DNA of 6,817 bases. Origin: Thermoproteota archaeon. GTDB taxonomy: Archaea > Korarchaeota > Korarchaeia > B14-G2. The stretch is from assembly GCA_003661385.1 (NCBI GenBank), contig QMWA01000098.1, forward strand, positions 1-6,817. Direction: 5' to 3'. Numbering within the stretch: the first letter of the stretch is position 1; every line of letters starts with the position of its first letter. The notes below the pieces were generated by a model. It was not told the origin of the DNA, did no database searches, and saw nothing but the letters and a program-made list of their open reading frames with translations. A program made the translations under genes and the position numbers. This document shows positions 1 to 3,851 of this stretch, in pieces.

Positions 1-322
1 CGATAAGCTCACCCTCAATATCGTAGTCAGTGCACACGACTACACGCCTACTCCTCCTATAAAGCTCCATGATTGCCCTGATGTACTTTGGGGCATCCTT
101 AACTCCAGTGACAGGCCTCCACTCCATCCTGTACACTGGGTACCCGCGGTCTGGGGAGTAAACCTCATACAGGTGGCCTCTAGCTGGGACAGCAACACAC
201 TTGAGGCCATCGACCTCAAACTCAAAAACCCCAATGCCATGAACCCTCCTCCTGGAGACCCCTCCATCAGCTAAAGCCCTAGCTATCCTCTCAGCCTGCT
301 TGCCCTTTTCAGCAAGAAACAT
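1..322 (-). CDS. topA: DNA topoisomerase type IA, N-terminal Toprim part (partial)
   Basis: The frame runs off the left edge, so only about 107 N-terminal residues are visible. They form a Toprim domain: an opening strand and helix MFLAEKGKQAERIARAL with the conserved glutamate, a GHLYE segment near the middle, and CTDYDIEGELI at the window edge, which carries the DxDxxGE metal-binding signature. Type IA enzymes cut one strand through a 5'-phosphotyrosine and relax negative supercoils; the tyrosine domain lies outside the window. I chose the ATG at 322. It gives an N terminus like bacterial TopB (MRLFIAEKPS) and lies about 33 nt from a TATA-like element at 352-359, which suits a leaderless or short-leader mRNA. 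GTG at 325 and GTG at 352 (directly after an in-frame TAA, with a GGTGG upstream) are alternatives. Topoisomerase III or another Toprim protein cannot be fully excluded, but the archaeal TopA assignment is likely. Confidence 0.82.
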   Translation of the reverse strand, partial: MFLAEKGKQAERIARALADGGVSRRRVHGIGVFEFEVDGLKCVAVPARGHLYEVYSPDRGYPVYRMEWRPVTGVKDAPKYIRAIMELYRRSRRVVVCTDYDIEGELI

Positions 323-351
323 CACATCATACCGCAGCCCAGATGCCAACA

Positions 352-359
352 CTTAAAAG
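352..359. promoter_or_regulatory. TATA-like element, possibly bidirectional (topA / C/D RNA)
   Basis: CTTAAAAG reads as CTTTTAAG on the other strand, so it can act as an archaeal TATA box either way. Its centre is about 24 nt before the first base of the predicted C/D RNA (379, plus strand) and about 33 nt before the topA ATG (322, minus strand). Both distances suit archaeal TATA-to-start spacing. No clear purine-rich BRE is seen, so the assignment rests on spacing and sequence. Confidence 0.5.
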
Positions 360-378
360 CCACCCACCCAACAAACTA

Positions 379-443
379 ATGGCGATGATGTAGGCGAACA
401 TCTCTTGACTCCAGGATGATAGACCCAGCTCAACCTGAGCCAT
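379..443 (+). ncRNA. C/D box guide sRNA, predicted 2'-O-methylation guide for 23S rRNA
   Basis: Visible in order: 5' stem ATGGC (379-383), box C ATGATGT (385-391, 6 of 7 to RUGAUGA), a 13-nt guide (392-404), box D' TTGA (405-408), a 7-nt spacer, box C' ATGATAG (416-422, weaker), a 12-nt guide (423-434), box D CTGA (435-438), and 3' stem GCCAT (439-443), which pairs perfectly with the 5' stem. The D' guide contains GGCGAACA, complementary to UGUUCGCC of the 23S A-loop. The fifth nucleotide before D' (A400) falls on E. coli U2552, a known methylated position. The D guide ACCCAGCTCA is complementary to archaeal UGAGCUGGGU; the fifth nucleotide before D (T430) falls on about A2577. The rRNA sequences are from memory. 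One mismatch next to U2552 (T401) weakens the D' duplex. The promoter at 352-359 is correctly spaced. In the cell the RNA would work with L7Ae, Nop5 and fibrillarin. Confidence 0.78.
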
Positions 444-486
444 TCTGGCTATTAATGTGTTTCCATACTAAGTGAAGCCAGAATGG
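440..486 (+). repeat. Long imperfect hairpin after the C/D RNA
   Basis: CCATTCTGGCT (440-450) and AGCCAGAATGG (476-486) form a perfect 11-bp inverted repeat. Inside it, TTAATGTG (452-459) can pair with CATACTAA (464-471) with one A.C mismatch and one G.U pair, closing a TTTC loop. The foot of the hairpin uses the same bases as the 3' strand of the C/D RNA terminal stem (439-443), so the two folds exclude each other. No T-run follows, so it is not a classic terminator. A processing signal, a separate small RNA or a protein-binding palindrome are all possible. Confidence 0.55.
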
Positions 487-503: not shown

Positions 504-541
504 AAGCCTGTATACTTCTCTAAATCCCAAAAGCCAGGCTT
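504..541. repeat. Short inverted repeat, 7-bp arms
   Basis: AAGCCTG (504-510) and CAGGCTT (535-541) are perfect complements separated by 24 nt. The spacing resembles that of the neighbouring 440-486 repeat, but the arms are short and I see no strong pairing in the loop. Its role is unknown and it may be chance. The rest of the 444-637 stretch holds no convincing gene. Confidence 0.25.
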
Positions 542-602
542 ACGCTGCGCCCCTCATGCCAACAGGTGGTAAATGCTCTGTGTAAAGTAGCCTCAGCTGC
601 TC

Positions 603-618
603 CAGCATGTTGATGCTG
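603..618. repeat. Compact hairpin / palindrome upstream of the regulator gene
   Basis: CAGCAT and ATGCTG form a perfect 6-bp stem around the loop GTTG. It lies about 20 nt upstream of the TATA-like element at 638-645. A position just upstream of the promoter could suit an activator or regulator site, but this is only inferred from location. Confidence 0.3.
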
Positions 619-637
619 CTACAATTCGTGATGTGCC

Positions 638-645
638 TTCTTTAA
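638..645 (+). promoter_or_regulatory. TATA-like element of the regulator-uppP operon
   Basis: TTCTTTAA is a fair archaeal TATA box. With the usual spacing of about 26 nt, transcription would begin near 668-670. That is downstream of the first possible start codons (GTG 661, TTG 664) and just before GTG 676, the same TATA-to-start distance (about 33 nt) as for topA and the PPC gene here. Confidence 0.4.
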
Positions 646-651
646 CTACCT

Positions 652-671
652 GACCCCAGGGTGTTGGGGTC
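652..671. promoter_or_regulatory. GC-rich inverted repeat at the operon start, candidate operator
   Basis: GACCCCA (652-658) and TGGGGTC (665-671) are perfect 7-bp complements around a 6-nt spacer. The repeat lies between the TATA-like element and GTG 676, covering the predicted transcription start. A repressor bound there would block initiation. Since the first gene encodes an HTH protein, autoregulation is a reasonable guess, with no direct proof. Confidence 0.4.
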
Positions 672-675
672 TAGT

Positions 676-984
676 GTGGAGTCTGAGTGCTCTAGGAGGG
701 AGCGCTTGCTGATGCTTCTGCTGTCCAGTGACAGCCCCCTCACCCCCAGGGAGATAGCTGAGGAGCTTGACCTGAGCGAGAGGGATGTCTACAGGGATAT
801 TGAGCATGTTGCTAGGAGCTTGAGGGCTAGATCAGGAGGGTCTATGTGGGTTGAGGTCCTGCCTCCGCAGTGCTTGTCCTGCGGCTTTGTCTTCTCGAGG
901 AGGCCTTGGGCTAGGAAGAGCAGGTGTCCTCGATGTAAGAGCACACATATCTCTCCACCTAGGATTAGGGTTGGGAGGCGGTAG
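676..984 (+). CDS. Predicted transcriptional regulator, HTH fused to zinc ribbon (COG3357-like)
   Basis: The product is a small soluble protein of 102 residues in two parts. Residues about 8-52 form a winged-helix-like HTH, with LTPREIAEELDLSERDVYRD covering the helix-turn-helix. Residues about 61-96 hold a zinc ribbon with two CxxC knuckles, CLSC (C66, C69) and CPRC (C84, C87). The order HTH, IEHVARSLR-like linker, then CxxCGFVF and a second CPRC is typical of archaeal COG3357-type proteins, whose targets are unknown. I prefer GTG 676: it fits the TATA box and keeps the whole HTH. GTG 661 (107 residues) and TTG 664 are possible. The stop is 1 nt before the uppP start, so the two genes are cotranscribed and probably translationally coupled. 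Its DNA target may be the palindrome at 652-671; that is inference. Confidence 0.8.
   Translation: MESECSRRERLLMLLLSSDSPLTPREIAEELDLSERDVYRDIEHVARSLRARSGGSMWVEVLPPQCLSCGFVFSRRPWARKSRCPRCKSTHISPPRIRVGRR
973..981 (+). promoter_or_regulatory. Ribosome binding site that sets the uppP start
   Basis: GGGAGGCGG lies in the last codons of the regulator gene; its GGAGG core ends 7 nt before TTG 986. This supports 986 as the start of the phosphatase rather than a longer upstream frame. Confidence 0.6.
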
Positions 985-985
985 G

Positions 986-1744
986 TTGCCTGAACTGCTG
1001 GCTATGCTTGTAGCTGGAGTCGTGCAGGGTATCCTGGAGTGGCTTCCAGTCAGCAGCGAGGGATTCGTTGCAGCTGCCCTGCTATACTTCGGCTGTAGTC
1101 CACGCGTCTCTGTTGACTTGGCGCTACTAGCCCATGGTGGCACGATGGCTGCTGCAGCACTGTACTTTAGGAGGGAGCTAGCTCAAGGCTTGAGGAGCTC
1201 TAGCTTGAGAAGAGGCATTGTACCCTTCCTAGCTTCCTCCACGGCTTTCACCGCTGCAGCAGGCCTCCCACTTTACAGGTTTGTCACGTCACTTGACAGC
1301 AGAGCTATGACTGCTCTGCTAGGGATCTCTCTACTAGCTACTGGCTTGCTAGCTAGAGTCAGGTGGGTGAGGGGCTCTAAAGTGGTTGAGGACTTGACTC
1401 TACTTGATGGTGTGGTAGCTGGCTTAGCTCAGGGTGCTGCTGTGATCCCTGGTATAAGCAGGAGCGGATCCACCATCCTAGCGCTGATGCTGCTCGGCTT
1501 GCCTCCAAGTGAGGCTGTTAAGGCCTCCTTTATCATGTCGATACCAGCTTCAGCTGGAGCTGTGCTGCTAGCTTGGCCAGCTGACAGCCTGCTGCCTGTA
1601 GCTGTCATGGTCGCGTGCTCGCTGGCTGCTGGCCTGCTTTCCATAGGGCTTATCTCTAGGGCAGCTAGCTCTGCTCCCTCAGCTTTCCCAGTGGCTTTAG
1701 GCGTGATATGCCTGCTGTCTTTACTGGCCCCAAGCCCCCCTTGA
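986..1744 (+). CDS. uppP: Undecaprenyl-diphosphatase family protein (UppP/BacA), polyprenyl-PP phosphatase
   Basis: This is an integral membrane protein of 252 residues, close to the family's usual 250-275. UppP removes the terminal phosphate from a C55-type polyprenyl diphosphate to recycle the lipid carrier; in archaea the likely substrate is a dolichyl-type diphosphate used in glycan assembly. Visible signatures are QGILEWLPVSS (residues 14-24, with the (E/Q)xxxE pair Q14 and E18), a conserved AHGGT segment near residue 50, and PGISRSGST (155-163, catalytic-type R159). Several hydrophobic segments follow through to the C terminus. The bacterial SSSGH stretch reads SSEGF here, so the histidine after the serines is absent. 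The TTG at 986 is chosen over a longer frame starting at 851 because that extension overlaps the regulator, lacks membrane character, and a ribosome binding site precedes 986. ATG 1004 is an alternative. The 3' end overlaps the convergent DUF211 gene by 24 bp. Confidence 0.9.
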   Translation: MPELLAMLVAGVVQGILEWLPVSSEGFVAAALLYFGCSPRVSVDLALLAHGGTMAAAALYFRRELAQGLRSSSLRRGIVPFLASSTAFTAAAGLPLYRFVTSLDSRAMTALLGISLLATGLLARVRWVRGSKVVEDLTLLDGVVAGLAQGAAVIPGISRSGSTILALMLLGLPPSEAVKASFIMSIPASAGAVLLAWPADSLLPVAVMVACSLAAGLLSIGLISRAASSAPSAFPVALGVICLLSLLAPSPP

Positions 1745-2014
1745 CCCCGTCTTCTCCACTGTTATGCCGTCTACGCTCCTGAGGCTGCAGGAGGACTCCT
1801 CTAAGAGCTTCTTTATCTCCTCTCTGTCGAGGTTCATGCCCTCCAGCGTTATCCTGGTCGTCTCAGTTGCTATGTCCCTCTCCAGGATGTCTATCTGGAT
1901 CCTCTCTACTCCAGTTGCCTGGAGCAGGTTCTCTGCTAGCATCTCAACTGGCAGTGTGTTCGGCTTCAGCACGTCCAAGACGAGCCTAACTACTACAGGT
2001 TTACCCCGACTCAA
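1721..2014 (-). CDS. DUF211 family protein
   Basis: The product has 97 residues and matches the archaeal DUF211 family in length and pattern. It opens with VVVRLVLDVLKPNTLPVEMLA, has a central GVERIQIDILERD strand region and a TTRITLEGMNLDREEIKKLLEE segment, and ends with SLRSVDGITVEK. The family has a small ferredoxin-like alpha/beta fold that assembles into rings; its biochemical role is not established. The start is TTG 2014: an in-frame stop lies at 2026-2024 and no other start codon lies between. A good ribosome binding site AGGTGAGG is 7 nt upstream. The gene is 34 bp downstream of the Nudix gene, and a TATA-like GTTATAAC (2048-2055) could also give it its own promoter. The C-terminal codons overlap the convergent uppP gene. 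Confidence 0.88.
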   Translation of the reverse strand: MSRGKPVVVRLVLDVLKPNTLPVEMLAENLLQATGVERIQIDILERDIATETTRITLEGMNLDREEIKKLLEESSCSLRSVDGITVEKTGSRGAWGQ

Positions 2015-2021
2015 TCGGAGC

Positions 2022-2029
2022 CCTCACCT
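2022..2029 (-). promoter_or_regulatory. Ribosome binding site of the DUF211 gene
   Basis: AGGTGAGG on the minus strand is complementary to the usual archaeal 16S 3' end and ends 7 nt before TTG 2014. It confirms a non-ATG start. Confidence 0.6.
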
Positions 2030-2047
2030 GTGCCTACCATAGCTTGA

Positions 2048-2055
2048 GTTATAAC
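2048..2055 (-). promoter_or_regulatory. TATA-like palindrome before the DUF211 gene
   Basis: GTTATAAC overlaps the stop codon of the Nudix gene. Transcription from it would start about 2025, 11 nt before TTG 2014, although that would leave the AGGTGAGG site only partly transcribed. It may therefore be chance, with DUF211 simply read as the third gene of the operon. Confidence 0.25.
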
Positions 2056-2459
2056 CTTTGCTCCAGCTTCATGAGCCCATCTCTGACTATGTCAGCGTGA
2101 TCGAAGGCCATTTTGCTAGGTGGCTCCCTGAACCACCTTAGCTCAGGTGCCTCTTCTGTTTCTGTCTGAGCTCCGCCAGCTACCTCAGCCAGGAAGGCTA
2201 TGCTTACGACATGGTACCTGGGGTCTCTGTCTGGCTTGGAGTATACTCCTATTATCTCCTTGAGGCGGACCTTCAGCCCTGTTTCCTCCTCAGCCTCTCT
2301 AGCTGCAGCCTCCTCTACTGTCTCACCATACTTCACATGTCCTCCAGGTAGGGCCCAGTAGCCCCTGTATGGCGGCTTGCCCCTCCTTATCAGCAGGAAC
2401 TCCCTGCCTCGGCAGATCATCACGTCGACTGCCAGGACTGGGGTGTAGAGGCTCCTCAA
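2049..2459 (-). CDS. Nudix hydrolase
   Basis: The product is a cytoplasmic protein of 136 residues, a complete single-domain Nudix length. The Nudix box GX5EX7REUXEEXGU is intact at residues 40-62, with G40, E46, R54, E55 and the metal-binding pair E58/E59; before it is the WALPGGHVKYGE turn. Nudix enzymes split nucleoside diphosphates linked to another group X, using Mg or Mn. Archaeal proteins of this size and shape are often called ADP-ribose pyrophosphatases, but substrate-specific residues cannot be assigned here, so I leave the substrate open. TTG 2459 overlaps the TGA of the PPC gene (TTGA), and a GGAGGTGGAGG site sits in the end of that gene, so translation is coupled. A shared pathway with the PPC protein is plausible but unproved. 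Confidence 0.92.
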   Translation of the reverse strand: MRSLYTPVLAVDVMICRGREFLLIRRGKPPYRGYWALPGGHVKYGETVEEAAAREAEEETGLKVRLKEIIGVYSKPDRDPRYHVVSIAFLAEVAGGAQTETEEAPELRWFREPPSKMAFDHADIVRDGLMKLEQRL

Positions 2460-2911
2460 CCCTCCACCTCCAGCACAGCTGGATCTGTCTGGAGGAGCTC
2501 AAGCCCAGTCTCAGGGTCTGGAGCTCTCACCAGCTCAGCTCTTTCAGCCTCGACTATCACAAGCTCGCCTGTCCCCCTAACTCTGCTTCCGGGCATCAGG
2601 TGGCCTACTACGACCTTGCCCCAGTTTCCTGCTGCAATGTGGGCGTGTACGGCTACCTCCCCACTAAGCTTTCTTGAGATGGTTCCAGTGCAGGATACGA
2701 CCTCCATGAACTCCTCGAACACCCTCGTCTCATACTGGCCTCCTCCCCTGTAGACACCGACTACAAGCCTATCTACTCCTCCTATCAAGCTGAATGTAGC
2801 TGCCCTCACGTTGTGGCTTTCAGCAACCCTCTTTATCTCCTCAAGTATGTCGCTTCCCTCCTTAAGCCTGTGGAATATAAGCCTAGGGCTTAAGCCTACT
2901 ATAGGGCTCAA
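2456..2911 (-). CDS. PPC/DUF296 domain protein
   Basis: The product has 151 residues, nearly all one PPC (DUF296) domain. The conserved core is clear: a strand with ATFSLIGGVDRL, then EVVSCTGTIS, then VAVHAHIAAGNWGKVVVGHL around residues 87-105. H89, H91 and H104 are the histidines expected to bind zinc in this family, and GTGELVIVEA follows as the closing strand. In plants the domain is joined to AT-hooks and mediates trimer formation; prokaryotic members stand alone and their role is uncertain. No AT-hook is present. TTG 2911 directly follows an in-frame stop (2914-2912) and is preceded by GGTGA with a 5-nt gap, so the start is well fixed. The gene leads the PPC-Nudix cluster and is transcribed away from the radical SAM gene, probably from the TATA element at 2940-2948. 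Confidence 0.88.
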   Translation of the reverse strand: MSPIVGLSPRLIFHRLKEGSDILEEIKRVAESHNVRAATFSLIGGVDRLVVGVYRGGGQYETRVFEEFMEVVSCTGTISRKLSGEVAVHAHIAAGNWGKVVVGHLMPGSRVRGTGELVIVEAERAELVRAPDPETGLELLQTDPAVLEVEG

Positions 2912-2939
2912 CTAGGTCACCGGCTTCCCCACCCCTCAG

Positions 2940-2948
2940 CTTTTAAAT
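2940..2948. promoter_or_regulatory. TATA-like element shared by divergent PPC and radical SAM genes
   Basis: CTTTTAAAT reads as ATTTAAAAG on the minus strand. Its centre is about 28 nt before TTG 2973 (plus) and about 33 nt before TTG 2911 (minus). It is the only AT-rich stretch of the 61-bp gap, so one TATA box may direct both genes, probably with leaderless or very short-leader transcripts. Confidence 0.5.
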
Positions 2949-2972
2949 CCTCTTGCCCTCATCTAGCTACAG

Positions 2973-3851
2973 TTGGGTGTCACCTTGAAGCTTTCTCCAT
3001 TCAAGAGGGGCCCACTCTGCACTTGCCCACCGAAGTACAACCTCAACACCTACGCTGGGAGGTGCAGACATGGCTGCGTATACTGCTATGCAGTCAAGTT
3101 TCCAGCTTTCAGAGGGGAGCTCAAGCCTAGGCTCTCCCTGATACCCCACCTAGATAAGCTCGCCAGAACCAGGCCTAAGATGACTGTCATGCTATCAGAT
3201 GCAACAGACCCCTATCAGCCAGCTGAAAGAGAGTACTGCATAACCAGGAGAGCTATAGCTAAGCTCAGTGAAGCAGGCTTCCCTCTGCTGGTGGTCACGA
3301 AATCCCACCTGGTAGCCAGAGACGTGGACATACTCAGGAGATCCAGGTGCGTTGTCTCCATGACAGTCACTATGCTCGACAGGAGGAAGTCGATGGTCAT
3401 AGAGCCCAAAGCTCCCCCACCTGAGCTCAGGATCAGAGCCTTAAGCGTCTTGAGTGAAGCCGGGGTCCCAACCGCAGCGAGAATAGACCCCATAATCCCT
3501 GGGGTAAATGACAGCCCAGAGGGGCTCAGGAGGCTCGTGATAAGGCTCTACGACGCTGGAGTCCAGCACATAACGGCCTCAACTCTGAAGCCCGTCAGGG
3601 GTTTCTTCCAGAAAATCAAGCACATCCCCTGGCTATACGAGAGGCTAGCCAGAGAGTACCAGGATGCAATGCAGATAGCAGGCTACAGCTACCTCCCTGA
3701 GAAGAGGAGGAGAGAGCTTCTAGCTCCAGTCAGGGAGGCAGCAGAGGACATGGGGCTGACGTTCGCGGTATGCAGGGAGGGCTTCAGCTGGAACACCGCC
3801 TCATGTGACGGCTCACACCTAGCTACCGGGGGCTCTCAGCTCAGGGTATAG
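2973..3851 (+). CDS. Radical SAM protein, spore-photolyase-like (SplB/COG1533) family
   Basis: The product has 292 residues. The radical SAM cluster motif CRHGCVYC (C31, C35, C38) lies in an AGRCRHGCVYCYA context typical of COG1533 proteins, so a 4Fe-4S cluster should cleave S-adenosylmethionine to a 5'-deoxyadenosyl radical. Downstream are MLSDATDPYQPAE (the usual TDPYQPxE segment), LVVTKS, VSMTVTMLD and ARIDPIIPGVND, consistent with the TIM-barrel half of the family. Additional cysteines occur before the motif (C16, C18) and near the C terminus (C267, C278 in a CDGSH segment). Spore photoproduct lyase itself repairs UV lesions, but archaeal members are uncharacterised and no substrate should be inferred from the name. 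TTG 2973 is chosen because it lies about 28 nt after the TATA element; the N-terminal residues then match the family. The last 11 bp overlap the convergent gene. Confidence 0.9.
   Translation: MGVTLKLSPFKRGPLCTCPPKYNLNTYAGRCRHGCVYCYAVKFPAFRGELKPRLSLIPHLDKLARTRPKMTVMLSDATDPYQPAEREYCITRRAIAKLSEAGFPLLVVTKSHLVARDVDILRRSRCVVSMTVTMLDRRKSMVIEPKAPPPELRIRALSVLSEAGVPTAARIDPIIPGVNDSPEGLRRLVIRLYDAGVQHITASTLKPVRGFFQKIKHIPWLYERLAREYQDAMQIAGYSYLPEKRRRELLAPVREAAEDMGLTFAVCREGFSWNTASCDGSHLATGGSQLRV

Follow-up and report, generated by a model that had tools for sequence, protein, structure and literature searches.

A very probable double-guide C/D box sRNA predicted to target two nearby sites in the peptidyl-transferase region of 23S rRNA in a Korarchaeia genome

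Results

Genomic context of the candidate sRNA

The window, by which we mean the whole stretch of 6,817 nt analyzed here, corresponds to contig C98 in a 1.74-Mb archaeal MAG (91% complete) that we place in Korarchaeia, a class with 25 other genomes, where it forms its own family. The following features were assigned at and around the candidate sRNA:

2-352, minus strand: type IA topoisomerase gene with a Toprim domain, the divergent neighbour of the sRNA
352-359, either strand: TATA-like element CTTAAAAG, with its centre some 25 nt upstream of where the sRNA is predicted to start
378-444, plus strand: the whole candidate C/D box sRNA gene (from a direct reading of boxes, stem and guides, an architecture scan and the pair list)
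378-383, plus strand: 5′ strand of terminal stem I, AAUGGC, forming six Watson-Crick pairs with 439-444
384, plus strand: G384, a single nucleotide between stem I and box C
385-391, plus strand: box C, AUGAUGU, departing from RUGAUGA only in its final nucleotide (U for A)
392-404, plus strand: D′ guide, AGGCGAACAUCUC, 13 nt, of which 393-404 pair with the organism's own 23S rRNA
405-408, plus strand: box D′, UUGA, which is CUGA with C changed to U, compensated by A421 in box C′
409-415, plus strand: D′-C′ loop (K-loop), CUCCAGG, read from the sequence
416-422, plus strand: box C′, AUGAUAG, with the core UGAU retained
423-434, plus strand: D guide, ACCCAGCUCAAC, 12 nt, of which 423-432 pair with the organism's own 23S rRNA
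435-438, plus strand: box D, CUGA, read from the sequence
439-444, plus strand: 3′ strand of terminal stem I, GCCAUU, pairing with 378-383
661-984, plus strand: PF0610-like HTH/zinc-ribbon gene, the downstream neighbour of the sRNA

The TATA-like element had been described in a first-pass annotation as a correctly placed TATA box for the sRNA. Its spacing on the plus strand does suit the sRNA, but on the minus strand its position would suit the divergent topoisomerase gene just as well if that gene starts at the inner ATG near position 322. On that strand it reads CTTTTAAG, which is closer than CTTAAAAG to the archaeal TATA consensus. The element may serve the sRNA, the topoisomerase gene, or both. 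We also observed the topoisomerase locus twice in the MAG, in versions from two strains: one in the window (1-394) and one on contig C12 (1-394; L038). Positions 333-394, comprising the promoter and the first part of the sRNA, are identical in the two versions despite divergence of the adjoining coding sequence; this identity does not tell which of the two genes the TATA-like box serves.

Box architecture and predicted fold

Judging from its boxes, stem and guides, the plus strand of the window at 378-444 very probably encodes a complete double-guide archaeal C/D box sRNA, with a predicted length of about 60-67 nt. The four boxes, the two guides and the terminal stem are all present where they had first been described. 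The stem, reported as perfect, consists of six base pairs, all of them Watson-Crick, and its full extent lengthens the element from 379-443 to 378-444, while an architecture scan returned the near-canonical guide lengths of 13 and 12 nt that had been claimed. When pairing was derived by the pattern expected from known C/D structures, the ends of the sRNA formed a complete C/D K-turn, in which the unpaired nucleotides G384-A385-U386 are followed by the sheared G-A pairs G387-A438 and A388-G437 and then by U389-U436 and G390-C435. The element thus combines a K-turn on a terminal stem, an internal D′/C′ K-loop and two spacers of about 12 nt.

The first-pass annotation had listed box C′ (ATGATAG) and box D′ (TTGA) as weak points. 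In the pair list, C′ and D′ are joined by G418-A408, A419-G407, U420-U406, A421-U405 and G422-C404. Since A421 (consensus G) and U405 (consensus C) lie opposite each other in the K-turn, A421-U405 replaces a G-C pair, and G422-C404 lengthens the C′/D′ pairing. The deviations therefore compensate each other, and the two off-consensus boxes amount to one compensated change.

Pairing of both guides with 23S rRNA

The single 23S rRNA of the source MAG is located on contig C20 (locus L001; match 539-3588), and no 16S rRNA was found in the MAG. We searched the 23S locus for targets of the two guides, and the best matches fell at the equivalents of U2552 and A2577. The D′ guide (393-404) forms 12 uninterrupted base pairs, 11 Watson-Crick and one G:U, arranged as ten consecutive Watson-Crick pairs followed by U403:G and then C404-G; its predicted duplex energy is -20.7 kcal/mol, and its next-best place in the locus offers six base pairs. 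The D guide (423-432) forms 10 uninterrupted Watson-Crick pairs with a predicted energy of -18.8 kcal/mol, compared with eight base pairs at its next-best place, leaving the two nucleotides adjoining box D unpaired. By the +5 rule, the D′ guide points to the U at position 2681 of the organism's own 23S rRNA and the D guide to the A at position 2706, which are 25 nt apart.

This region aligns without gaps to that of Escherichia coli. In the E. coli copy used, which has 2913 nt, the two target nucleotides are at 2561 and 2586; the reference 23S rRNA has 2904 nt, and subtracting the nine extra nucleotides gives U2552 and A2577. The earlier predictions of two target sites about 25 nt apart, and of U2552 and approximately A2577 as the nucleotides selected by the N+5 rule, thus agree both with the register on the organism's own 23S rRNA and with the ungapped alignment. 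A missing 8-10 bp match to that rRNA had been named as grounds for abandoning the assignment, and the alignment instead gave matches of 12 and 10 bp. Each guide contains ten consecutive Watson-Crick pairs over its +5 site, where the published criterion is nine Watson-Crick pairs covering +5 (PMC4644070).

A mismatch at T401 had also been suspected. The A-loop of the organism's own 23S rRNA reads GGGGATGTTCGCCC and has an A at E. coli position 2551, with which T401 pairs, so the D′ duplex is uninterrupted. The A-loop sequence GGGGATG(T/C)TCGCCC, with A in place of E. coli C2551, was present in all readable class relatives (read from L001 [G000:C20] at about 3215-3253, L041, L043-L049 and L051). 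The D′ guide therefore fits the rRNA of its own organism more closely than the common sequence; as just one sequence of this sRNA is known, the T401-A2551 fit is an agreement rather than a demonstrated covariation. We observed in addition that, with A2551, helix 92 would lose its closing pair C2551-G2557, and that one relative (G006; L046) also carries U2554C.

We consider it unlikely that, in a genuine C/D sRNA, only the D′ guide directed at U2552 is catalytic while the D guide just anchors the RNA or chaperones 23S folding. The two unpaired D-guide nucleotides beside box D are consistent with such a division of labor, and in certain archaeal double guides one arm is considered non-methylating (PMC4644070). 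However, the non-methylating arms in that study are mismatched at +5, whereas the D guide has no such mismatch: its +5 nucleotide and both flanks are paired inside the 10-bp Watson-Crick duplex, and the A2577 site carries methylation in eukaryotes.

Searches for related sequences

A covariance search placed no Rfam C/D family above its cut-off at 378-444, in which respect the element differs from archaeal C/D sRNAs with a family assignment. The best matches were sR49 (RF01303; 18.1 bits) and sR38 (RF01121; 13.1 bits), both with gathering scores of 50; these are archaeal C/D families as well, and the likeness is confined to the boxes and ends. Archaeal C/D families in Rfam are guide-specific, and a match above the cut-off does not by itself define a C/D sRNA.

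No homologous sRNA was recognised in the 25 class relatives with BLAST and four patterns, which returned coding-like or chance-like sites only, and BLAST matches in 100 relatives were all short or within coding-like DNA. In the 26 Korarchaeia genomes, patterns for guides aimed at U2552/G2553 or at A2577 hit coding-like contexts without C/D architecture. The full dual-guide pattern, searched in this guide order only, had four matches among 84,980 genomes, all of them bacterial and close to the estimated chance number. Two candidate relatives were set aside: C5:5468 (CCCAGCTCAACCTGA) lacks a box C, and L026, which was picked for sharing TGACTCCAGGATGAT, has boxes and no terminal stem. The intergenic DNA had no match among phages. 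Guide turnover has been reported for archaeal C/D sRNAs (PMC4644070), so the missing homologues weigh little against function; they do mean that comparative covariation is lacking for this sRNA.

A decayed or unexpressed copy, that is, an sRNA by descent whose production has been lost, might be expected to show the deviations in C, D′ and C′, the ambiguous promoter and the isolation within its class of 25 relatives. We nevertheless judge this very unlikely, given that each guide is perfect across 10-12 nt, that the C′/D′ deviations compensate, and that the 5′ part up to position 394 is preserved between the two strains next to diverged coding sequence.

Sequences flanking the sRNA

Directly after the sRNA lies a perfect 11-bp inverted repeat (440-450/476-486) with a predicted hairpin energy of -20.1 kcal/mol (z -3.46), possibly a processing or termination element. 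The hairpin and terminal stem I are mutually exclusive, since the left arm of the repeat shares sequence with the 3′ strand of the stem. The roughly 190 nt between the sRNA and the HTH gene (450-640) showed no significant Rfam match and no listed long plus-strand ORF.

The position between divergent genes and the strong hairpin next to the element (440-486) would also suit a cis element of the neighbouring genes, such as a K-turn leader or regulatory hairpin without a trans-acting guide, and L7Ae is reported to bind K-turns in other RNAs (PMC5539422). Such an element would have no need of two rRNA-complementary spacers of 10-12 bp in +5 register. The sequence at 378-444 also lies more than 200 nt from the start of the downstream gene, and upstream of the divergent gene, outside its body; we regard this explanation as highly improbable.

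Comparison with random sequence and the rest of the genome

First-order Markov sequence built from the window, 20 Mb in all, contained no instance of the strict box architecture. A looser scan in which a terminal stem was required gave three matches per 20 Mb of the same null, the weaker guide of each pairing over only 6 bp. Matches of 10 bp to the organism's own 23S rRNA were reached by 1.1-1.4% of random 12-13 nt guides, and by both of two random guides at a rate of 1.6e-4, prior to any demand on register or 25-nt proximity. Individual guide matches of about 10 bp thus arise in roughly 1% of random guides, but the joint architecture is absent from the 20 Mb null and the looser candidates fall short on one guide, so that chance resemblance in intergenic DNA is strongly disfavoured and has next to no probability, in line with the earlier judgment that two guides near the A-site were unlikely to be accidental.

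Applied to 347 kb of stretches from the organism's own genome, the looser scan returned two elements, the sRNA at 378-444 and L001:4465-4519. The latter (plus strand) lies downstream of the 23S and RNase P RNA genes and is a further candidate C/D box sRNA; it scored 38.2 bits against Rfam snoPyro_CD, under the gathering score of 45, its D′ guide forms eight Watson-Crick pairs and one G:U with the organism's own 23S rRNA at position 1207, and it works as a positive control. The archaeal RNase P RNA gene itself (L001:3619-3903, plus strand, 188.8 bits) starts about 30 nt past the end of the 23S match and may be co-transcribed with the rRNA. Within the window, a box C-like sequence at 629-635 was rejected as a second element, its guide having just a 7-bp match to 23S rRNA.

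Discussion

Methylation machinery and proposed mechanism

The genes for fibrillarin (314.7 bits) and Nop5 (210.1 bits) neighbour each other on contig C3 of the MAG. RlmE/FtsJ is the protein enzyme that makes Um2552 in E. coli. It was not detected in the MAG, where FtsJ-family matches scored 31.0 bits at most; three such weak matches were rejected as RlmE, their frames resembling those of an NSUN-type protein and of two UbiE-like methyltransferases. As the MAG is 91% complete, the missing gene is no proof, and is only suggestive of RlmE being absent from this lineage's genome.

If the sRNA is expressed and assembled, as we infer, its ends would fold into a K-turn (C/D) and its middle into a K-loop (C′/D′), and L7Ae, Nop5 and fibrillarin would be loaded onto the folded RNA. 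The D′ guide would pair with the 23S A-loop (helix 92), placing fibrillarin to methylate the ribose 2′-OH of U2552, and the D guide would pair with the strand 25 nt downstream, directing methylation to A2577. Given the short distance between the two targets, this particle may, in addition, keep that part of the peptidyl-transferase region in position while the rRNA folds. Tentatively, we propose a lineage-specific double guide, in which one RNA serves two peptidyl-transferase methylations that are split in yeast between snR52 and snR71, the D′ guide is adapted to the Korarchaeia-wide A2551, and RNA-guided methylation stands in for RlmE. This full combination is a possible account, and we hold it with much less assurance than the identification of the sRNA itself.

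Relation to known guides

As a kind of object, the sRNA at 378-444 is routine. In a survey where a double guide has two targets within 100 nt, 262 of 489 archaeal sRNAs were of this kind, and U2552 modification was predicted in five species (PMC4644070); modification of the A-loop at U2552 and/or G2553 has also been described (PMC7994747). Like archaeal double-guide C/D sRNAs, our candidate has the box order, the spacer lengths, the K-turn and K-loop, two targets less than 100 nt apart and at least nine Watson-Crick pairs per guide, and U2552 is a common guide target. Korarchaeia are without mention in either survey. The candidate shares the A-loop target of archaeal U2552 guides; it differs in carrying U401 for A2551 and in having A2577 as its partner target.

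The same two nucleotides are targeted in eukaryotes. Published tables list yeast Um2921 (snR52) and Am2946 (snR71), with equal 25-nt spacing, together with human and plant counterparts, human U29 among the guides to these sites. Yeast uses two separate snoRNAs, whereas one double guide is proposed for the Korarchaeia MAG. E. coli RlmE/FtsJ would yield the same product at U2552 as is predicted here, but as a stand-alone protein.

If our interpretation is true, a member of the Korarchaeia would have an RNA-guided route to Um2552, a modification achieved differently in other organisms, and Um2552 would be paired with Am2577 in one particle. The agreement of the D′ guide with an unusual, class-wide A-loop would make this sRNA a good test case for guides tracking changes in their targets.
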